From the NCBI GenBank assembly GCA_019358855.1, contig JAHHII010000005.1:62001-126000 (forward strand): a stretch of DNA of 64,000 bases. The letters run 5' to 3'. Of this stretch, positions 3,463 through 33,247 are shown piece by piece. The DNA comes from Timaviella obliquedivisa GSE-PSE-MK23-08B (GTDB taxonomy: Bacteria; Cyanobacteriota; Cyanobacteriia; Elainellales; Elainellaceae). The notes beneath the pieces were generated by a model. It saw only the letters and a program-made list of their open reading frames with translations, made no database searches and was not told the origin of the DNA. A program made the translations under genes and the position numbers. The number at the start of each line of letters is the position of its first letter. Within the stretch, counting starts at the first letter, position 1.

Positions 3463-4065
3463 ATGACAATGACCTTAAGTGAATACTCAGTTAAAGATAG
3501 CGCTCCCTTTGAAAAATCTTTGCCTAAGACGTTACAGCATTTCCAGCGTCGAGAAAGTATTCCTCTTAATCAAAACACCTTGTGGCAAATTGAAAGTGGT
3601 GTTGTGCGGACTGCCACATGGGGAACAGATGCAGCAATAGTTCCCCTAGGCTTCTGGGGTTCTGAGGACATTATTGGATTACCTTTGTCTCAGATTGCTC
3701 CTTACCAAATTGACTGCTTGACAGATGTAACTGTTCGCATTTTGTCTAATGGGTTGCCCTACCCTCTAGACGCGATGATTTCTCATATTCAGCAAATGGA
3801 GGAGCTCTTAAGAATGATGCACAGCAATTCTGTTGAGCAGCGGTTGCTGAAATTCTTATTTTGGTTTGCTAACAAGTTTGGACAGGATACAAATGATGGG
3901 CAAATTATCAAGGTCCGTTTGACTCATCAAGAAATTGCGGAAGTTATTGGTTCAACTCGAGTTACAGTGACTCGCTTGCTCCAAAAATTCCAATCCGAAC
4001 GAATGCTGAATTGGTCGGAAGAGCGATACATGCTACTTGGATATTCTGCTGATTTAGCGTCGTGA
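3463..4065 (+). CDS. Crp/Fnr-family transcription regulator with NtcA-like recognition helix
   Basis: A 200-residue Crp-family protein. The N-terminal half is a short, degenerate cyclic-nucleotide-binding-like barrel without a recognisable cAMP phosphate-binding cassette. A dimerisation helix follows (MEELLRMMHSNSVEQRLLKF), then a winged helix with HQEIAEVIGSTRVTVTRLLQ. That stretch closely resembles the DNA-reading helix of NtcA, the cyanobacterial nitrogen regulator, but the effector domain is shorter and different, so it is not NtcA itself. The ligand is unknown. No clear ribosome site precedes the ATG. A MITE lies immediately downstream. Confidence 0.88.
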   Translation: MTMTLSEYSVKDSAPFEKSLPKTLQHFQRRESIPLNQNTLWQIESGVVRTATWGTDAAIVPLGFWGSEDIIGLPLSQIAPYQIDCLTDVTVRILSNGLPYPLDAMISHIQQMEELLRMMHSNSVEQRLLKFLFWFANKFGQDTNDGQIIKVRLTHQEIAEVIGSTRVTVTRLLQKFQSERMLNWSEERYMLLGYSADLAS

Positions 4066-24009: not shown

Positions 24010-24198
24010 AAAAACCTTTTTCAGAATCTAAATTTATTTAAGTGAGATACCTTATTACCCTATTCAGATTTATTCCGCTTCATATTATGCGCTTCTTTCT
24101 AAATACAAATCTATCCATTGTTAGAGATCTGTGTGAAAGAGGTAATCTGGAATACAAAAAGTGTCAATATTTTGAGGTCTAATTTAAGATAAAGTTCT

Positions 24199-25626
24199 TT
24201 GCATGTTCATTTGTCAAAGCTAATTTCAGAACTACTTGATTCAACGAGACTACTCCTCGATCTCCAGCAGGTAAATGATATTGCTGGAAGGATATCAGGC
24301 TGCTTAGTTCCAGAGGCGATCGCTCAACAGGTCACAGATGGTTTAGTTGAAAAGTTTGACTGTGCCTTCTCTCGGATTTGGTTGGTAGAACCTGACCAAT
24401 CTGCACTACGATTGGTGGCTTCGTCAGGACTCTATACGCGAATAGATGGCTCGTTCGCTAGAGTGCCAATGGGTGCATTCAAAGTTGGAAAAATTGCAAA
24501 AAATCGAATTGCATTTCTAAGTAACAATCTGTCTGAAGAAACTTGGGTGAAGGATCGAGAATGGGCGATCGCTAACCAAATTCGAGGGTTTGCGGGCTAT
24601 CCCCTGGGCATTAGCAGCGCCTCCTCCTCCGAGCATGCCGCGATTGGAGTATTGGCTACCTTCAGCTACTCACCCCTGACTCCCGAATTTTTAGAAGTTC
24701 TGCGTTTTCTTTGCACTCTCGTCACCATTTCTCTCAATGCCACCCTAGACCAAAAGACCATCCCCACTCCACCCGAACGCCTGCCTCTCTCTGACCAACT
24801 CGCTCAAGTGCTAAGCATGTCTCCTCTTACCCTGGTAGGAACAGAAAAGCCTTTAGCCGTCTCATTACAGTGTATTTTGCTGCGCTTAGCTGAAGTACTA
24901 AGCCAAGTCGAGTGCAACTATTGTCGGCTCACCTACGCCCCTGACATTGTTACCCTAACTGCTGTTGTGTCTATGCCTAATCTGCCGCAAGCACAGATCC
25001 CTAACTGGTTGCAAACGGCTTTTAGTAATCTGCTAACAACAGCCGCTTGTTTTGGAGGAAGCTTGCAAACTCAAATGGGGCTGAACCAAAAAAACATCCA
25101 GGTCTTGCTAACATTGCCCTACTCTAATGATCCGGTAGGAGCATCTTTATACATTGCTTGTCGTCAGCCGCTCTTACAAACAACCTTTATTCAACTTGCC
25201 CATGTTGCAGGACTGCAAGTGACTAGCACATGGAACGGGGAGAGTCCAATATTAACTGATGATGTTACTAAAATTTTGTCAAATCAGAAGATAATTTGGG
25301 TACAGATAGAAGGACAAACTATTCCTAAAGGAATTCATGCTTGCGTTACTTTATCTGTTCAGGCATCAGAGTTACGCGAAACAATAGAAGCGGTTATCCA
25401 GGGTTCTCCCCAGGGCTTGCTAATATCCTCTGAACCTAAACTATCAGGGCGCGAACTAGAGATACTCAAGCTTTTAGGACAAGGATATCGCGATCGCGAT
25501 GTTGCACAGCAACTGGTTATCAGCGAGAGTACAGTAAAGTTCCATTTAAACAATGCGATGACTAAATTGAAAGCGCGTACCCGTTACCAGGCACTTTATC
25601 AAGCAATGAAAGATGGCTGGCTTTAA
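24199..25626 (+). CDS. GAF-domain LuxR-type transcription regulator
   Basis: 475 residues. A GAF sensor domain covers residues about 20-175 (FDCAFSRIWLVEPDQSALRL; AIGVLATFSYSPLTPEFLE). The middle, about 190-390, is not recognised. The C-terminus is a LuxR helix-turn-helix: LSGRELEILKLLGQGYRDRD, VISESTVKFHLNNAMTKLK. The only plausible start is TTG at 24199, because the next in-frame ATG lies inside the GAF domain; the ribosome site is poor, so the true start could be another non-ATG codon. GAF ligand unknown (haem, tetrapyrrole or nucleotide are all possible). MITE copy 3 is just downstream. Confidence 0.82.
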   Translation: MHVHLSKLISELLDSTRLLLDLQQVNDIAGRISGCLVPEAIAQQVTDGLVEKFDCAFSRIWLVEPDQSALRLVASSGLYTRIDGSFARVPMGAFKVGKIAKNRIAFLSNNLSEETWVKDREWAIANQIRGFAGYPLGISSASSSEHAAIGVLATFSYSPLTPEFLEVLRFLCTLVTISLNATLDQKTIPTPPERLPLSDQLAQVLSMSPLTLVGTEKPLAVSLQCILLRLAEVLSQVECNYCRLTYAPDIVTLTAVVSMPNLPQAQIPNWLQTAFSNLLTTAACFGGSLQTQMGLNQKNIQVLLTLPYSNDPVGASLYIACRQPLLQTTFIQLAHVAGLQVTSTWNGESPILTDDVTKILSNQKIIWVQIEGQTIPKGIHACVTLSVQASELRETIEAVIQGSPQGLLISSEPKLSGRELEILKLLGQGYRDRDVAQQLVISESTVKFHLNNAMTKLKARTRYQALYQAMKDGWL

Positions 25627-25637
25627 AAACCTATTAG

Positions 25638-25784
25638 AGGATGTCTGAGAAGTATCAAAGATTCTTACACTTGCCCCCCAACCTCCCATTCTGGGGGACT
25701 TCCGAACCAATGCTCCTTCAAAGTCCCCCAGAATGGGGGATTTAGGGGGCGGATCGGAAACAATCTATACTTCTCAGACATCCT
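25638..25784 (+). mobile_element. MITE family A, copy 3, with 5-bp target duplication
   Basis: 147 bp, ends AGGATGTCTGAGAAGT and ACTTCTCAGACATCCT. A perfect ATTAG duplication at 25633-25637 and 25785-25789. Same orientation as copy 1. It lies 11 bp after the stop of the GAF-LuxR gene and upstream of the NtcA promoter of the Nit1C cluster. Confidence 0.9.
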
Positions 25785-25873
25785 ATTAGTTTTGGTAGGA
25801 AGATCGAAGAAGTATTTTTGAATCTTGTGTTAGTATCACGCTGCCTATGACAATCGCTAAACCTAAGTTTTTC

Positions 25874-25915
25874 GTAACACCTACTACTAAGTTAAGCTTA
25901 TGGAGCTTTTACTCT
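25874..25915 (+). promoter_or_regulatory. NtcA-activated promoter of the Nit1C cluster
   Basis: GTA-N8-TAC at 25874-25887 (GTAACACCTACTAC) is followed after exactly 22 nt by a -10 box TACTCT (25910-25915, pattern TAN3T). This is the canonical arrangement of NtcA-activated cyanobacterial promoters, in which the NtcA site replaces the -35 box. Transcription would begin near 25922, about 20 nt before the flavoprotein ATG. Confidence 0.85.
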
Positions 25916-25944
25916 GCTTATTAAAGTTGCAGGAGTTCTGACTC

Positions 25945-27255
25945 ATGAAAACACATTATCCTGTCATCGTTGTTGGCGGTGGACAAGCAGGTTTATCAAT
26001 CAGCTATTGCCTAAAAGAACGAGGTATTGAACACCTAGTCTTTGAGAAAGAAAAGATTGCTCACTCGTGGCAGACAAAGCGCTGGGATTCTTTTTGTTTG
26101 GTTACACCCAACTGGCAATGCAAGCTACCAGGATATGAGTATTCAGGCAGTGATCCACAAGGATTTATGCCGAAAGATGAAATTCTGAGATACATAGAAG
26201 CTTATGCTGCATCATTTGATCCGCCTGTCCTAGAAGGAGTTGAGGTGATCAGCGTTCGCAAAAAACAGACCAGCTTTGGACTCATTACCTCAATTGGAGA
26301 ATACACCGCCGACCAAGTCGTTATTGCTTCAGGCAGCTATCACAAACCCAAAATTCCTAAAGTTGCCGATCGCCTGCCTGAATCTATTCTGCAAATCCAT
26401 TCCTCCGCTTACAAAAATCCCCAGTCTTTACCTGCTGGTAGAGTGCTAGTCGTAGGGACAGGGCAGTCGGGTTGCCAAATCGCCGAGGACTTACACCTGG
26501 CAGGCAGGCAGGTGCATTTGTGCGTGGGGGGTGCCCCGCGATCGCCCCGTGTCTACCGAGGTAAGGATGTGGTTGAATGGCTCGATCAAATGCGATACTA
26601 CGATCTGCCCATCAGTGAGCATCCCCAAAAAGAAAAGGTTAGAACAAACGCTAACCATTATGTGACCGGACGGGACGGCGGACGCGAAATCGACTTGCGA
26701 AAGTTTGCCCTAGAGGGAATGCAGCTACACGGTAGGCTGAAAGATATTCAGGGCGGCAAGCTAGAGTTCTGGGACGACCTCAAGCAAAATTTAGATTATG
26801 CTGACGCTGTTTCAGAAGGCATAAAAAAAACTGTGGATGGATTCATTGAAAGGAACCAAATTCAAGCGCCGACAGAGCCAGCTTATCAACCCGTTTGGCA
26901 ACCCCCCCAGACATCACAGCCTCTAGATTATCAGTCTATTAGTACCGTCATTTGGAGTACTGGGTTCCAATCTGACTTTAGCTGGGTTGAAGTCCCAGTG
27001 TTTGATGGTAAAGGCTATCCAGGGCATGAGCGGGGCGTAACAGGCATAAAAGGATTATATTTTCTCGGGTTGCCTTGGCTCTACACTTGGGGCTCAGCCA
27101 GGTTTTCAGGCATTGCCCGCGACGCGAACTATTTAGCCGAGGAAATTTGGTCAAGTCTGCGAACTTCAGCGTTTGCACTTTATTCACCCACGGTTGAGGA
27201 AATTTGTCCTTGGTTATTAAATACAGGTTTGGTCACAACAGATCTGTCTATTTAA
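25945..27255 (+). CDS. MSMEG_0569-family flavin-dependent oxidoreductase (Nit1C)
   Basis: 436 residues. FAD-binding GGGQAG at residues 9-14, a flavin-monooxygenase-like body (FEKEKIAHSWQTKRWDSFCL), second dinucleotide motif VVGTGQSGCQIAEDL, and a final motif STGFQSDFSWVEVPVFD. This flavoprotein is a constant member of the Nit1C cluster, known from Synechocystis, mycobacteria and cyanide-using pseudomonads. Its substrate is not known. GGAG sits about 10 nt before the ATG. It is first in the cluster and carries its own NtcA promoter, so expression is expected to rise under nitrogen limitation. Confidence 0.92.
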   Translation: MKTHYPVIVVGGGQAGLSISYCLKERGIEHLVFEKEKIAHSWQTKRWDSFCLVTPNWQCKLPGYEYSGSDPQGFMPKDEILRYIEAYAASFDPPVLEGVEVISVRKKQTSFGLITSIGEYTADQVVIASGSYHKPKIPKVADRLPESILQIHSSAYKNPQSLPAGRVLVVGTGQSGCQIAEDLHLAGRQVHLCVGGAPRSPRVYRGKDVVEWLDQMRYYDLPISEHPQKEKVRTNANHYVTGRDGGREIDLRKFALEGMQLHGRLKDIQGGKLEFWDDLKQNLDYADAVSEGIKKTVDGFIERNQIQAPTEPAYQPVWQPPQTSQPLDYQSISTVIWSTGFQSDFSWVEVPVFDGKGYPGHERGVTGIKGLYFLGLPWLYTWGSARFSGIARDANYLAEEIWSSLRTSAFALYSPTVEEICPWLLNTGLVTTDLSI

Positions 27256-27349
27256 GCCTGTCGATTTAGATAGGTGCTTTGCCCAACTTTATCCTCTTTT
27301 GAAAGTCATAAGCGCCAAGCCTGACCTTATAGCTAGACTTGCAGCTTTC

Positions 27350-27391
27350 GTAATCAAATATACACTTTCTACCTCTAGCCCCCCTTAACGT
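27350..27391 (+). promoter_or_regulatory. Second NtcA-activated promoter inside the Nit1C cluster
   Basis: GTA-N8-TAC at 27350-27363 (GTAATCAAATATAC) and, after exactly 22 nt, TAACGT at 27386-27391 (pattern TAN3T). The gene for the Sll0783-type protein starts 57 nt further on. The geometry matches the promoter at 25874, so the cluster has two nitrogen-responsive start points. Confidence 0.85.
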
Positions 27392-27448
27392 GACAGCACA
27401 ACTTATAATTGTTTAACAGCAATATCAGAAATATCAGAGGAAAAAATC

Positions 27449-27931
27449 ATGCCAGAAGTTACAACTCCTGCTCATCAAACAGGTGACTTTTTTGTAGACT
27501 ACGAAGAAAAAGTTTTCCCTGATGTTAAAGCAGAACCTGGAGAAAAAGCCCTTGTTACATTTCATACTGTTGCTTTTGAAGGCTCGATTGGTTTAGTCAA
27601 TATGTTGCAATCCTTGCGCTTACTCCGTAAAGGCTTTGAAACCTCTATGTTGCTTTACGGGCCTGGCGTAACATTGGGCGTTCAGCGTGGTTTTCCTAAG
27701 TTAGGAGATGAAGCATTTCCAGGTCATCAAAACTTTGCAAACCAAATTACTAAGTTCATTTCAGAAGGCGGTAAAGTTTACGCTTGTCGATTTGCGTTGC
27801 AAGCTTTATATGGACATGGTGAACCTTCTTTGCTTCCTGGTATTCGCCCCATCAGTCCCTTAGATGTATTGGATTTGGTGCTGATGCATCGTAAAGATGG
27901 CGCTTTCATTCTAGATACCTGGACTCTTTAA
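27449..27931 (+). CDS. MSMEG_0572/Sll0783-family nitrogen starvation response protein
   Basis: 160 residues, very like Synechocystis Sll0783: [57 protein letters not shown] and the end [19 protein letters not shown]. The fold is a DsrE-like small domain. In Synechocystis this gene is strongly induced by nitrogen starvation, and its loss lowers polyhydroxybutyrate accumulation. Start supported by AGAGGA before the ATG. It has its own NtcA promoter and is followed by a small hairpin (27970-27988) with no T run, so read-through to the nitrilase gene is likely. Confidence 0.95.
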
Positions 27932-28111: not shown

Positions 28112-29125
28112 ATGGGCGATATCGCCAAAGTTAGAGCCGCCGCAGTGCAGCTCAGTCCTGTACTGTTTAGCCGCGAAGGCACTACGGAGAAAGTATTACA
28201 GGCGATCGCCAAAGCCGCTGAACAAGGGGTGCAGATTATTGTTTTCCCAGAAACTTTCATCCCTTACTATCCCTATTTCTCCTTCGTGCAACCGCCCGTT
28301 CTGATGGGCAAAGAGCATATGCGTCTTTACGAAGAAGCCGTGACGGTTCCTGGAGTTGTCACCAATGCCATTAGTCGTGCCGCTCAGGCACACAATATGG
28401 TAGTGGTTTTGGGTGTTAATGAACGAGATCATGGCTCGCTCTACAATACTCAGATTATCTTCGATGCCGATGGTGAATTATTACTGAAACGGCGCAAAAT
28501 TACACCGACTTATCATGAGCGTATGGTCTGGGGGCAAGGAGATGGAGCAGGGCTGAAAGCGCTGGATACCGCTGTGGGCAAAGTTGGCGCACTTGCCTGT
28601 TGGGAGCATTACAATCCATTAGCCCGGTATGCGCTCATGGCTCAGCATGAGCAAATCCACTGCGCTCAGTTTCCAGGTTCGCTCGTAGGAGAGATTTTTA
28701 CAGAGCAAATTGAGGTGACGGTTCGTCATCACGCGCTGGAATCAGGATGTTTTGTAATTAATTCTACAGGTTGGCTTTCACCAGAACAGGTACAGCAAAT
28801 TACGCCCGATGATAAGCTTCAGAAAGCGTTGAAGGGCGGATGCTATACCGTCATTATTAGCCCAGAAGGAACGCTGCTTTGTGAGCCTATTACCGAAGGG
28901 GAAGGAATGGCGATCGCGGATCTAGATTTCTCTCTGATCACTAAAAGGAAGCGCATGATGGACTCTGTAGGGCACTATGCTCGTCCAGATCTTTTACATC
29001 TGACGTTGAATAACGCGCCTGGGCTAGTTATGCGTCGAGATGAAGCACCAGAAAATCCATTAGAGAATTCTGACTCTAATGCAAATGCGAACGATGATAG
29101 TCATGCTTCGCCTCTTACTTTATGA
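28112..29125 (+). CDS. Nit6803-type nitrilase (Nit1)
   Basis: 337 residues. The catalytic triad is visible at E47 (VFPETF), K129 (KRRKITPT) and C163 ([11 protein letters not shown]), each exactly six residues before the E53-K135-C169 triad known for Synechocystis Nit6803. These enzymes hydrolyse nitriles to acids and ammonia in the cytoplasm. In Nit1C-bearing Pseudomonas the cluster is needed for growth on cyanide, so detoxifying or using cyanide or a related nitrile is plausible here. The C-terminal 25 residues ([15 protein letters not shown]) are a low-complexity tail. Its stop overlaps the radical SAM start (ATGA), indicating translational coupling. Confidence 0.95.
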
Positions 29126-30216
29126 AAGAAGCTATGAACAAACAACAGCTTATTACTGAACTGCAATCTCAGGGGTTAAAGCTACTTGAAAAAGAGGTTG
29201 GTGCAGCCGGACGTAAAGGTGGCGCAGGGCCTTCAGATCATAAGGCAGTTACGATTGATGGCACAACGATCATGGTGCCGATTTTCACCGACACTGCGGC
29301 ACAGTCTCCTTACACTGCCGAAATTCTGCCAACGGGGGAGGCACTGCTGAAGTATGAAGAAGAACCCCTTGCACCTATTCATTTTCCCCATCCACCAAAG
29401 TTCTATAGCCTCAATACTGTGGATGGCATCCCTTACTGGAAGATTGCCCTCCTTCATAGCCAAGACGTTTTGGCGACTACTGTTTTGCAAACCTGCATCC
29501 GCTATAGTGACACTACAACATCTTGTCAGTTCTGCGCTATCGGTCAATCTTTGGCAAGCGATCGCACCATTGCCCGCAAAACTCCCAACCAGGTGGCAGA
29601 GGTTGCTGTTGCTGCTGTTCGGCTAGATAGTGTCAAACACCTTGTAATGACTACAGGTACGCCCAACGTTAGCGATCGTGGTGCGGCATACTTAACTGAA
29701 TGTGCCGCAGCAGTTAAGGCACAGGTTAATTTACCCATTCAGGCGCAGTGCGAGCCTCCTGACCAGTTTACTTGGTTTGAACGGATGAAGAACGCTGGAA
29801 TAGAAAGTTTGGGAATGCATCTAGAGGCAGTGGAGCCAGAAGTTAGAGAACGAATCATGCCTGGAAAAGCGACTGTGCCGATCGCATACTACTTAGAAGC
29901 ATTTGAGGCAGCCGTTAAGGTGTTTGGGCGAGGACAGGTCAGCACTTACCTGCTGGCTGGTCTAGGCGATCGTCAGGCTGCTCTGGTCGAAATGAGTGAA
30001 CGATTGATTCAAATTGGGGTTTATCCATTTATTGTGCCATTTGTGCCAATCACGGGCACTCCCCTATCGCAACATCCTGCCCCCAATAGTGAATGGATGG
30101 TCACCCTCTATCAACAGGTTGGCAAGCTTTTGAAGCAAGCAGGAATGTCTTCCAAAGATATGAGTGCGGGTTGTGCAAAGTGTGGTGCTTGTTCTGCACT
30201 CTCGACCTTTGAGTGA
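29122..30216 (+). CDS. MSMEG_0568-family radical SAM protein (Nit1C)
   Basis: 364 residues. The iron-sulfur site is C-x9-C-x2-C ([14 protein letters not shown]), not the usual CxxxCxxC, as is typical for this Nit1C family. A second cysteine cluster, CAKCGAC, lies at the C-terminus and could hold an auxiliary cluster. The substrate is unknown; the family is confined to Nit1C loci. The ATG at 29122 overlaps the nitrilase stop; another ATG at 29134 is possible. The GNAT gene starts 16 bp later. Confidence 0.93.
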
Positions 30217-30232
30217 GGCTGTGAGAAAAAAT

Positions 30233-30784
30233 ATGCAAAGCTACAGTTTTAACTTAGCAACGACTCCAACTGATGTTCAAGCTTATTTTGCTTTACGTCA
30301 TCAAATTTTTGTGGAAGAACAAGGTTTATTTTCAGGTGATTCTACAAGTAATTCAATTGCCAATGAAGTCGATGATCGCGATGCGATCGCCTATCCTATT
30401 GTTGCAAAGTTGCAGGCTCAAGTTGTAGGGGTTGTTCGCATTTACGAACTTCAGCACAGAATTTGGTACGGCGGGCGACTGGGCGTTCACGTCGATCATC
30501 GTCGTGCTGGCAAAGTAGGTAAAGGATTAATTCATCAAGCGGTAACAACAGCCCACGGGTGGGGGTGCGATCGCTTTTTAGCAACCGTCCAGTCTCAAAA
30601 CGTGCGATTTTTTCAGCGATTGCATTGGACATCTCTCGAAGAATTGCATTTGTGTGGATTAAATCATGCTTTGATGGAAGCAGATCTTAGCTTTTATCCC
30701 CCTGGCTCCAGCGATCGACCCCTCTTACAGTTCCCAAATGTACAACCTTCCCTTCGGCATCCCTCTCTTATAGAAGCCTCTTAA
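30233..30784 (+). CDS. MSMEG_0567/Sll0786-family GNAT N-acetyltransferase (Nit1C)
   Basis: About 183 residues from the ATG at 30233; a GTG at 30221 is an alternative start. The GNAT core is visible: YFALRHQIFVEEQGLF at the front, VVGVVRIYEL in the central strand, then the acetyl-CoA loop region LGVHVDHRRAGKVGKGLIHQ and CDRFLATVQSQNVRFFQRL. It would acetylate an amine from acetyl-CoA; the acceptor is unknown. In some bacteria this domain is fused to the AIR-synthase-like domain, which here is a separate gene one base downstream of the stop. Confidence 0.92.
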   Translation: MQSYSFNLATTPTDVQAYFALRHQIFVEEQGLFSGDSTSNSIANEVDDRDAIAYPIVAKLQAQVVGVVRIYELQHRIWYGGRLGVHVDHRRAGKVGKGLIHQAVTTAHGWGCDRFLATVQSQNVRFFQRLHWTSLEELHLCGLNHALMEADLSFYPPGSSDRPLLQFPNVQPSLRHPSLIEAS

Positions 30785-30785
30785 C

Positions 30786-31772
30786 GTGAACTTGCTAACG
30801 ATTACCACTCAGCTTCGGAAAGCTTTAGGCATTGGTTACAAGCAAGATATTCAAACAGCCTCTGCTCATCTTCAGCCTGAACTGTCCCTGGCTGCATCCA
30901 ACCCAACCATTGCTATTGGCGATGATTGTGCTGCTATTCCTGACGGTAATGGCTATTTGTTGCTAGCCTCTGAAGGACTGCTGCCAAGCTTAGTCGAAAC
31001 TGAACCTTGGTTCGCAGGGTGGTGCGCTGTCATGGTCAATATCAGCGACATTTACGCAATGGGTGGTCGCCCGATCGCCCTCGTCGATACGCTCTGGAGC
31101 CAGTCGCCGGCAGCAACTCAACCCATCTGGCAAGGGATGTTGGCAGCCGCTAGAACCTATAGCGTCCCCATTGTAGGAGGGCATACGAATTGCCATAGTC
31201 CTTATAATGCTCTTTCGGTTGCCATCCTGGGACGTGCTAAAGCTCTCATTACTAGCTTCAATGCTCAACCTGGCGATTCACTACTGATTGCAACTGATTT
31301 TCGGGGTCAAGCCCATCCGCGCTATCCCTTTTGGAATGCAACCCTAGAAACTGAGCCTGCTCGTCTTCGCGGTGATCTAGAACTCTTGCCAATGTTAGCT
31401 GAGGTGGGACTATGCAATGCAGGTAAAGACATTAGCATGGGCGGTATTTTAGGAACGCTGCTAATGCTTTTAGAAACGTCAAACTGTGGTGCTGTCCTTA
31501 ATCTCGATCGCATTCCTTCACCGTCCACATTGTCGTTAGAAGATTGGTTAACTCGGTTTCCTAGCTATGGTTTTTTACTGAGTGTTCGCCCTAATCATTT
31601 TTCGATCGTTCAATCTCACTTTCATCAACGCAACTTGGTTTGTGAGGCGATCGGTACCATTCAATCAGAACCTAAACTTCTGTTAGAAAGTCTTTCCCAA
31701 ACAGAAGTATTCTGGGATTTACAGCAACATCCTCTGACAGGTTTTGGCAACCAAAAGCCATTCCCAAAATGA
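30786..31772 (+). CDS. Sll0787-family AIR synthase-like protein (Nit1C)
   Basis: 328 residues, GTG start at 30786 directly after the GNAT stop. The PurM/AIR-synthase fold shows IGDDCAAIPDGNGYLLLASE (metal/ATP-binding strand), WCAVMVNISDIYAMGGRPIA and VGGHTNCHSPYNALSVAILG. Members of this superfamily (PurM, ThiL, SelD, HypE) use ATP to activate carbonyl or carbamoyl groups. No substrate is known for this branch. The tight junctions on both sides show that it is part of one transcript. Confidence 0.93.
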   Translation: MNLLTITTQLRKALGIGYKQDIQTASAHLQPELSLAASNPTIAIGDDCAAIPDGNGYLLLASEGLLPSLVETEPWFAGWCAVMVNISDIYAMGGRPIALVDTLWSQSPAATQPIWQGMLAAARTYSVPIVGGHTNCHSPYNALSVAILGRAKALITSFNAQPGDSLLIATDFRGQAHPRYPFWNATLETEPARLRGDLELLPMLAEVGLCNAGKDISMGGILGTLLMLLETSNCGAVLNLDRIPSPSTLSLEDWLTRFPSYGFLLSVRPNHFSIVQSHFHQRNLVCEAIGTIQSEPKLLLESLSQTEVFWDLQQHPLTGFGNQKPFPK

Positions 31773-32929
31773 TGACCCAATCGTCCCTACGAATTGCACT
31801 ATTAACTTATGCTACCAAGCCTAGGGGTAGCGTCATGCAAACTCTCTATCTCGCTGAAGCGCTTCAGTCTCTAGGTCATACAGTCTGTATTTTTGCGTTG
31901 TCTAAAGGCGAAAGCTTTTGTCGTCCTGTAATCTGTGAAACTCGCTTCATTCCCTCCCAGCCTGCTGCGCTAGATGTTGAAGCACTTGTAAAACAACGAG
32001 TACAAGAATTTGTTGATTATTTTGAGCAATGTAATGAAGCCTACGACTGCTATCATGCCCAAGACTGTATTAGTGCAAATGCATTAGCCATTCTGCGTGA
32101 CTCTCCCCAGAAAATGCGTCATCCTATTCCTCACTTCATCCGCACGATTCACCATATTGATAATTACAATCATCCCTATCTTCAGCAATGTCAGGATCGC
32201 TCAATTCGTTTACCTGACTTGTGCCTTTGCGTCAGTCAATACTGGCAAGAACAGGTTTGGCAGCAGTATCAAGTTCATGCCAAGCGCGTTATTAATGGCG
32301 TAGATACCGTCAGATTTTCTCCATTGACTAACGGGTTAGAATCTCAGCTTCAGCAACGGTTTCAACTCAGTGGCAGCCCCATCTACCTGACGGTAGGAGG
32401 CATTGAACCCCGCAAAAACTCCATCACTTTATTAACGGCGTTCTCTCAGGTTCTAAAAATCCATCCTGATGCTCAACTCATCATTGCAGGCGGCGATACT
32501 TTTTTTGATTATTCTTCCTATCGAGAACAGTTTTTTAATACAGTTCAGCAAACAGGGATGCCTGAAAAAGCTCTGGTTCTACCGGGCACTATTTCTGATG
32601 CCGAGCTACCTGCTTTGTATCGCTGTGCCGATGCGTTCATTTTCCCTTCAGTTAAAGAAGGCTGGGGAATGGTGGTACTGGAAGCGATCGCCACTCACCT
32701 GCCTGTTGTCACGTCCAACATTCCGCCGTTTACCGAGTTTCTTACCAACGCACAGGCACTTTTGGTCGATCCCAATGCGACAGAAGCGATCGCTCAAGCT
32801 ATGCTAGATGTCGTTCAACCCACTATTGCACAATCTCTAATTCAACAAAGTCAGTCTGTTTTGTCCCATTACACTTGGCTCACGGCTGCCCAAATGCATC
32901 TAAAATTTTATTGTGATATTCATCTTTAG
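31769..32929 (+). CDS. MSMEG_0565-family glycosyltransferase (GT4, Nit1C)
   Basis: 386 residues with a GT-B, GT4-type fold. The N-terminal domain has GSVMQTLYLAEALQSLGHTV; the C-terminal nucleotide-sugar domain has YLTVGGIEPRKNSITLLTAF and the EX7E-type region FPSVKEGWGMVVLEAIATHL. It transfers a sugar from an activated donor to an unknown acceptor. The ATG overlaps the preceding stop (ATGATG), so it is translationally coupled to the AIR-synthase-like gene. Its presence suggests that the Nit1C product, or a storage form of it, is glycosylated. Confidence 0.93.
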   Translation: MMTQSSLRIALLTYATKPRGSVMQTLYLAEALQSLGHTVCIFALSKGESFCRPVICETRFIPSQPAALDVEALVKQRVQEFVDYFEQCNEAYDCYHAQDCISANALAILRDSPQKMRHPIPHFIRTIHHIDNYNHPYLQQCQDRSIRLPDLCLCVSQYWQEQVWQQYQVHAKRVINGVDTVRFSPLTNGLESQLQQRFQLSGSPIYLTVGGIEPRKNSITLLTAFSQVLKIHPDAQLIIAGGDTFFDYSSYREQFFNTVQQTGMPEKALVLPGTISDAELPALYRCADAFIFPSVKEGWGMVVLEAIATHLPVVTSNIPPFTEFLTNAQALLVDPNATEAIAQAMLDVVQPTIAQSLIQQSQSVLSHYTWLTAAQMHLKFYCDIHL

Positions 32930-32956: not shown

Positions 32957-33247
32957 ATGCCCGAAATTCACTTTCAAATTAAATGGCCCGACGGTCAGCC
33001 AGAAACCTGCTATTCGCCCTCGCTTATTGTCAAAGACTATTTTACGCCTAACAGCGAGTACAACTTAGAAGATTTTGTAATGCGATCGCGGACTGCTTTG
33101 AACATTGCCAGCGATCGGGTATTGGCAAAATATGGAATGCCCTGTGGTAGAGCACTAGGGCAGATCCGCCAGATTGAAGTAACGGCAGCAGCCTATCAAA
33201 ATCTTCCTGACCCCAAGGTGCAATTTCTTCAATTTATTGAGAATTAA
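32957..33247 (+). CDS. MSMEG_0570-family nitrogen starvation response protein (Nit1C)
   Basis: 96 residues, typical length for this small Nit1C protein: MPEIHFQIKWPDGQPETCYS, then VKDYFTPNSEYNLEDFVMRS and a C-terminal IEVTAAAYQNLPDPKVQF. The protein is soluble and has no known activity. It lies 27 bp after the glycosyltransferase and closes the cluster. The following 204 bp to the next gene contain no obvious terminator. Confidence 0.93.
   Translation: MPEIHFQIKWPDGQPETCYSPSLIVKDYFTPNSEYNLEDFVMRSRTALNIASDRVLAKYGMPCGRALGQIRQIEVTAAAYQNLPDPKVQFLQFIEN

Follow-up and report, generated by a model that had tools for sequence, protein, structure and literature searches.

Which regulators switch on the Nit1C gene cluster of cyanobacteria, and from which promoters? 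The cluster is widespread and it is linked to the use of cyanide or nitriles, and the natural substrate of its cyanobacterial form is a presumed one in the available parts of the literature. In the window, i.e., the whole stretch of 64,000 nucleotides analyzed here, the Nit1C genes form a collinear cluster and all of them exceed the NCBIfam cut-offs (Table 1); the true start of the GNAT acetyltransferase gene is probably located downstream of the listed position 30164. The genes belong to the same families as those of the sll0783-ssl1464 operon of Synechocystis PCC 6803, with the difference that the flavoprotein gene lies on the opposite strand in Synechocystis, according to the accessible text of the Nit1C-defining paper (PMC1199592), and is collinear here. 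According to the same text, no conserved upstream binding sites for transcription factors could be identified. In Synechocystis, sll0783 was reported to be upregulated upon nitrogen starvation and the operon to be downregulated with ammonium (PMC3901256; PMC10094980); in their accessible parts these sources name no NtcA site, no LuxR-type co-regulator and no second element. Nitrogen control of Nit1C is thus known from Synechocystis, and what appears to be new, judged from the sequence comparisons described below, is a composite promoter with a dedicated LuxR-type partner. The sll0783 paper of 2010 is said to have possibly proposed NtcA control of sll0783.

Table 1. Coordinates of the Nit1C region in the window; promoter elements are predicted.
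Feature	Position	Strand	Basis
NtcA-like box GTAATCTGGAATAC before luxR, followed after 24 nt by TAATTT (24180-24185)	24142-24155	+	
LuxR-type regulator (luxR), TTG start	24199-25626	+	Pfam, 22 orthologues, AlphaFold model
Lux-box-like dyad CTATGACAATCGCTAA; conserved element 25843-25864	25845-25860	+	Matrix score 15.1
NtcA box GTAACACCTACTAC of the flavoprotein gene	25874-25887	+	Sequence, conservation, matrix
-10 box TACTCT, predicted start near 25922	25910-25915	+	Sequence; orthologues have TACTCT, TAATCT or other TANNNT
MSMEG_0569-family flavin-dependent oxidoreductase (NitH type; flavoprotein)	25945-27255	+	NCBIfam TIGR04046, 665 bits (cut-off 498)
Lux-box-like dyad CTGACCTTATAGCTAG of the second promoter; element 27319-27340	27321-27336	+	Matrix score 25.2
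NtcA box GTAATCAAATATAC of the MSMEG_0572/nitrilase operon	27350-27363	+	Conservation; matrix score 18.1
-10 box TAACGT, 22 nt past the NtcA box, predicted start near 27398	27386-27391	+	
MSMEG_0572/Sll0783-family nitrogen starvation protein (NitB type; m0572)	27449-27931	+	TIGR04044, 284 bits
Nit6803-family nitrilase (NitC type)	28112-29125	+	TIGR04048, 587 bits
MSMEG_0568-family radical SAM protein	29122-30216	+	TIGR04043
Sll0786-family GNAT acetyltransferase	30164-30784	+	TIGR04045, residues 27-180
sll0787-family AIR synthase-like protein	30786-31772	+	TIGR04049
MSMEG_0565-family glycosyltransferase	31769-32929	+	TIGR04047
MSMEG_0570-family nitrogen starvation protein (m0570)	32957-33247	+	TIGR04042

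The preliminary description of this DNA placed a perfect class II NtcA promoter upstream of the flavoprotein gene. The layout is indeed exact: GTAACACCTACTAC occupies 25874-25887 and TACTCT 25910-25915, with 22 nt (25888-25909) between them, and the flavoprotein ATG follows at 25945. The word perfect is justified for core and spacing but not for the strength of the box, which scores 10.2 on a matrix built from 54 orthologous promoters with a training median of 21.0 and a training range of 7.4 to 27.9. The motif GTAN8TAC by itself shows no enrichment in the window (11 matches versus 7.4 expected; at least 11 matches in 13 of 100 shuffles). The full layout GTAN8TAC-N22/23-TANNNT is found three times, at 25874 and 27350 on the plus strand and once on the minus strand, while 60 Markov simulations of the window gave a mean of 0.48 and a maximum of 2; across the 4.9-Mb genome it occurs at 28 places. 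As these statistics are weak for the 25874 site itself, it is its conservation in orthologous loci that lifts it above chance. The genome encodes NtcA (381 bits, cut-off 245), and together with the occurrence of the layout at the same place in many cyanobacteria this supports the class II reading, so that the 25874 site is predicted to be, very probably, a class II activator site of NtcA. The proposed link between nitrogen status and Nit1C is likewise supported by the conservation, by the NtcA gene and by the ammonium repression of the Synechocystis sll0783 operon, as given in the accessible part of the source (PMC10094980).

For the comparison with relatives, flavoprotein loci with their flanks were taken from related and named genomes and 52 different loci were kept; one duplicate (L046, the same as L126) and regions with less than 250 bases upstream were dropped before counting. 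Of the 51 cyanobacterial loci with sufficient sequence, 36 had the strict layout in the 300 bp before the flavoprotein gene, and m0572, the MSMEG_0572/sll0783-type gene, was preceded by it in 34 of 38 loci. The layout was absent from all 184 regions upstream of the six other cluster genes, i.e., those for the nitrilase (0/37), the radical SAM protein (0/34), the GNAT acetyltransferase (0/36), the AIR synthase-like protein (0/34), the glycosyltransferase (0/29) and m0570 (0/14), and from the antisense strand. If the box is relaxed to GTN10AC and the distance to 400 bp, 49 of the 51 flavoprotein loci carry it, the exceptions being L108 and L127. A congener carries GTAACTACTACTAC-N22-TACTCT at the matching place. 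As the strict layout is conserved upstream of both genes, the window is predicted to contain two NtcA promoters. On the same matrix the 27350 site outscores the 25874 site (18.1 vs 10.2). The earlier reading was in this respect incomplete: it described the weaker of the two NtcA promoters and mentioned neither the second one at 27350-27391 nor the upstream dyad and its probable regulator. In the Nodosilinea group (L048-L061) the flavoprotein gene and m0572 are divergently oriented and each has its own strict NtcA class II site in 14/14 loci. The idea that the flavoprotein promoter has no NtcA control where luxR adjoins it was dropped, because the strict pattern had missed the GTN10AC variants that occur in those loci.

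Alignment of the promoters on the NtcA box revealed a second conserved block, which extends from 31 to 10 nt 5' of the box at both promoters. It contains a dyad with the core CTRNCNNTANNGNYAG (CT-N12-AG), the center of which lies 28 bp upstream of the NtcA center at both promoters. Centered at -21.5 relative to the G of GTA, the dyad has a symmetry of 2.44 compared to a shuffled mean of 1.03, and none of 5000 shuffles reached as high a value. The exact form CT-N12-AG is found in 45 of 56 non-redundant promoters; in the window it is matched by the dyad of the second promoter, while the flavoprotein dyad ends in AA rather than AG. Both dyads are centered at -69.5 relative to the predicted starts. 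CT-N12-AG is a motif published for LuxR-type factors, as far as the accessible parts of the sources go (PMC6113619; PMC4074388).

The specificity of this element was assessed with a combined matrix of NtcA box and element, from which the window and its congener were left out and for which L042 and near-identical promoters were dropped. The composite score reaches 43.3 and 25.3 in the window; the next best value in the 64 kb is 0.7 and the highest one in 60 simulations is 14.3. At the 26 other class II places of the genome the element scores negative in 25 cases and 1.8 in one. The element is missing at these 26 places, and the possibility that NtcA promoters carry it in general was therefore rejected. 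The class II search of the genome also lands upstream of glnA-like and ntcB-like LysR genes (named by eye, on the basis of their N-terminal sequences). In 16 non-cyanobacterial Nit1C loci (L062-L077) no composite promoter was found, the best score being 5.9. A search of 388 genomes yielded 88 composite places in 71 genomes, 77 of which are located within 4 kb of m0572 or the flavoprotein gene. The other 11 comprise three on a contig with luxR (G151, G142, G339), seven that are apparently unrelated and one (G179) with the same sequence as a match in the congener G191. A reversed control pattern gave about 36 places across the 388 genomes, and a scattered lone composite match therefore means little. 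The upstream element itself is well supported by the comparison and the identity of its binder fairly supported; the dyad is apparently a second switch beside the NtcA site that was not described before.

A candidate for this binder is encoded directly upstream. The LuxR-type regulator contains a GAF domain (residues 38-179), a middle alpha/beta region and a GerE helix-turn-helix (HTH) domain (residues 414-466); Pfam found GAF and GerE only and no autoinducer-binding domain. The AlphaFold model (mean pLDDT 82, pTM 0.42) has the same order of GAF, alpha/beta middle and C-terminal HTH, and most of the PDB matches listed for it represent GAF domains or photoreceptors that contain one. The 22 orthologues are 48-58% identical. 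Three cysteines of the protein, C35, C172 and C321, are nearly invariant, from which no clear ligand emerges. Many luxR orthologues (e.g., in G058, G097, G125, G128 and G136) match mainly over residues 8-310 and have frames of about 370-400 amino acids, as if their middle region were shortened. The gene luxR lies directly 5' of the flavoprotein gene here and in 12 of 53 loci of relatives, it is found elsewhere in the cluster in a few loci (L041, L134), and it is unlinked or out of view in most.

The regulator gene is itself preceded by an NtcA-like box. This box, GTAATCTGGAATAC, is weak on the Nit1C-derived NtcA matrix (1.7), and 18 of 41 regions 5' of luxR, counting the window genome, have GTAN8TAC at a corresponding position. 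In a set of 13 upstream regions the strict layout with TANNNT at 22-23 nt was absent (0/13) and the core alone was present in 10. The boxes suggest that NtcA may also drive the luxR gene.

The regulator and the cluster also occur together. Among 388 genomes of the class, including that of the window, m0572 is present in 153 and luxR in 140; 126 genomes have both, 27 only m0572, 14 only luxR and 221 neither, for which a Fisher test that ignores shared ancestry gives 1.5e-57. In 59 relatives searched, a strong luxR match was found in 31 of the 32 genomes with a strong flavoprotein match, the exception being G021, which is 78% complete, while G008, G031 and G045 carry luxR without a strong flavoprotein match. 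As 14 genomes have luxR without m0572, some of them near complete (e.g., G130, G252, G093 and G045, largely complete), the regulator may have other targets.

Genomes with the cluster and without luxR allow the dyad and the NtcA box to be compared separately. In this comparison luxR was searched in 18 genomes of named loci, the genomes of L040, L056 and L059 being left out. The sole one without luxR is Chroococcus sp. FPU101, in which HTH-only and weak GAF-only matches were found; both of its promoters have kept the NtcA box (21.7 and 17.7) and lost the dyad (-27.3 and -30.4). A second case is G215: luxR is missing from this genome and present in others of the genus, such as G185 and G103. All three share the m0572 NtcA box GTATTCAGTGTTAC; the element is lost in G215, with about -4.9 at both promoters, and kept in G185 and G103, with 20.3 and 18.6 at m0572 and 24.3 at the flavoprotein gene in both. 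In two further genomes without luxR, G255 and G299, the NtcA site is of the strict form at m0572 and of the relaxed form at the flavoprotein gene; the element is partly kept in G255 (about 6.6 at m0572, -2.2 at the flavoprotein gene) and scores about -1.9 and -14.7, respectively, in G299.

In the m0572 test set, from which 7 of 82 regions were dropped as their genomes were in the training set, 43 genomes carry both luxR and an NtcA site. The element reaches a score of 5 or more in 40 of these (median 17.3) and was missing at the expected place in the other three. The five luxR-less test genomes with an NtcA site scored 6.6, 2.2, -1.8, -4.6 and -27.3 (P = 0.001). The NtcA scores of the two groups do not differ (P = 0.58). 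None of the tests of element against luxR is corrected for shared ancestry, and the losses are few and not all independent. Six genomes were set aside as doubtful for the absence of luxR, namely G021, G129, G217, G228 and G247, which are incomplete or fragmented, and G296, in which a luxR piece lies at a contig edge, so that the gene may be present. Within this group no luxR was seen in G217, G228 and G247 and the element is kept (9.9, 12.0 and 9.6); these were treated as doubtful by judgement, because they are fragmented or incomplete and their congeners have luxR. In G296 (L194, L273) the m0572 dyad is shifted upstream by about 12 bp, or roughly one turn of the helix, compared with relatives.

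A counter-example is G015, which is 99% complete and has neither the flavoprotein gene nor luxR beyond HTH-only matches. Its composite promoter is nevertheless complete (element 16.2, NtcA 13.8, N23, TACGCT) and lies about 1 kb 5' of m0572. If G015 is counted, P becomes 0.003, and if G129, G217, G228, G247 and G296, the five doubtful genomes in which a relaxed class II site is present, are additionally taken as luxR-less, P becomes 0.0002. A gene for 338 amino acids, which by eye resembles methylenetetrahydrofolate reductase, is inserted between the composite promoter and m0572 in this genome (L196, 451-1467). Six more luxR-bearing genomes have no class II site upstream of m0572, with only 91 bases in view in one of them (G142), and 17 luxR-less genomes have none within 400 bp upstream of m0572, i.e., 14 members of family f2 as well as G083, G389 and G015. 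For f2, the absence of luxR, class II site and element together fits a joint loss and not a specific loss of the element. Across the genomes compared, the absence of luxR correlates with decay of the dyad, exceptions included.

We consider it likely that NtcA and the adjacent GAF-LuxR protein jointly activate Nit1C from two composite promoters. This proposal builds on what can be read in the DNA, i.e., both promoters, their fixed spacing, the dyad, the conservation and the co-occurrence. Upon an increase of 2-oxoglutarate, NtcA would bind GTAN8TAC at -41.5 and recruit RNA polymerase to the TAN3T box, and a dimer of the GAF-LuxR protein would bind the CT-N12-AG dyad at -69.5, at the fixed center spacing of 28 bp, and act as co-activator. 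As luxR is preceded by an NtcA-like box too, the circuit probably forms a feed-forward loop, which would need nitrogen shortage and a second signal sensed by the GAF domain. Binding of the LuxR-type protein to the dyad, activation rather than repression, the loop and the signal are what we infer here. More tentatively, the second signal could be the Nit1C substrate, a nitrile, cyanide or a product, with the regulator forming an AND gate with NtcA and being itself under its control; we hold this to be somewhat less probable than an even chance. If so, the cluster would open only when nitrogen is short and substrate is present, and the ligand of the GAF-LuxR protein would reveal the natural substrate of Nit1C.

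NtcA could also control Nit1C alone, with a factor other than the neighboring LuxR-type protein on the dyad. Where luxR is absent the NtcA boxes stay intact, which indicates that NtcA can be sufficient in those genomes; the composite promoter of G015 is complete without luxR, and the link between dyad and LuxR protein is drawn from sequence comparison. We nevertheless regard this explanation as unlikely, since the regulator gene adjoins the flavoprotein gene in a part of the loci and co-occurs with the cluster, since five other luxR-less genomes have a weak dyad or none, and since the dyad has the form known for LuxR-type proteins. Slightly less probable still is that the LuxR-type protein sits on the dyad to repress, or to antagonize NtcA, until a nitrile or cyanide signal frees the promoter. 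Ligand-released repression is a common mode of control and the GAF domain suggests a ligand, but sites near -69.5, upstream of another activator, are typical of activators and atypical of repressors, and so is the constant phase observed here.

It seems very improbable that the 25874 layout arose by chance and that transcription of the flavoprotein gene begins at the luxR promoter or at another start. About 0.5 such layouts per window are expected by chance, and the score of the box is among the lower ones of the orthologous promoters; layout and dyad are, however, kept with unchanged spacing in relatives, the congener among them.

A pathway-specific factor that works with NtcA is known from the nirA promoter, where NtcA acts together with the LysR-type regulator NtcB. 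The Nit1C promoters would likewise be two-factor promoters, with the difference that the partner is LysR-type at nirA and proposed to be LuxR-type with a GAF domain here. Quorum-sensing regulators such as LasR, RhlR and QscR have lux boxes of the CT-N12-AG form, as do 45 of the 56 promoters compared here, and a GerE-type DNA-binding domain; unlike these LuxR proteins, the regulator described here combines its GerE domain with a GAF domain, and Pfam finds no autoinducer-binding domain in it. Canonical class II NtcA promoters (glnA, nirA, urtA, ntcB) have the same GTAN8TAC at about -41.5 and the TAN3T box, according to the accessible text of the source (PMC3898017). The Nit1C promoters add the dyad at -69.5, which the glnA-like and ntcB-like class II sites of the genome lack. 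A regulator gene of its own next to the cluster, as found here, was also reported for nit1C of Pseudomonas pseudoalcaligenes CECT 5344; there, NitA is described in the accessible text as a sigma-54-dependent Fis-type protein, whereas a GAF-GerE LuxR-type protein is encoded beside NtcA sites here (PMC11049912). In titles and abstract openings of literature mostly outside subscription journals, no LuxR partner of NtcA at Nit1C was found. The proposed circuit would add a LuxR-type partner for NtcA. Two conserved sites at fixed spacing are found here upstream of Nit1C, the predicted nitrogen-control switch of which is common to many cyanobacteria, and the ligand of the regulator named here could point to the substrate.

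Three minor observations concern the surroundings of the promoters. A further GTAN8TAC match at 28754-28767, inside the nitrilase gene, has a matrix score of 11.7 and no -10 box at class II spacing. A second regulator of the CRP family is encoded at 3766-4026 of the window, about 20 kb from the cluster, and reaches 58.8 bits to the NtcA model, which is below the cut-off. A MITE-like element (25630-25789), about 145 bp long, separates luxR from the flavoprotein promoter and lies about 55 bp 5' of the dyad; it has inverted ends, is flanked by copies of CCTATTAG and is present at full length at no fewer than 40 places in the genome, its own included (40 of 185 candidates were scored).
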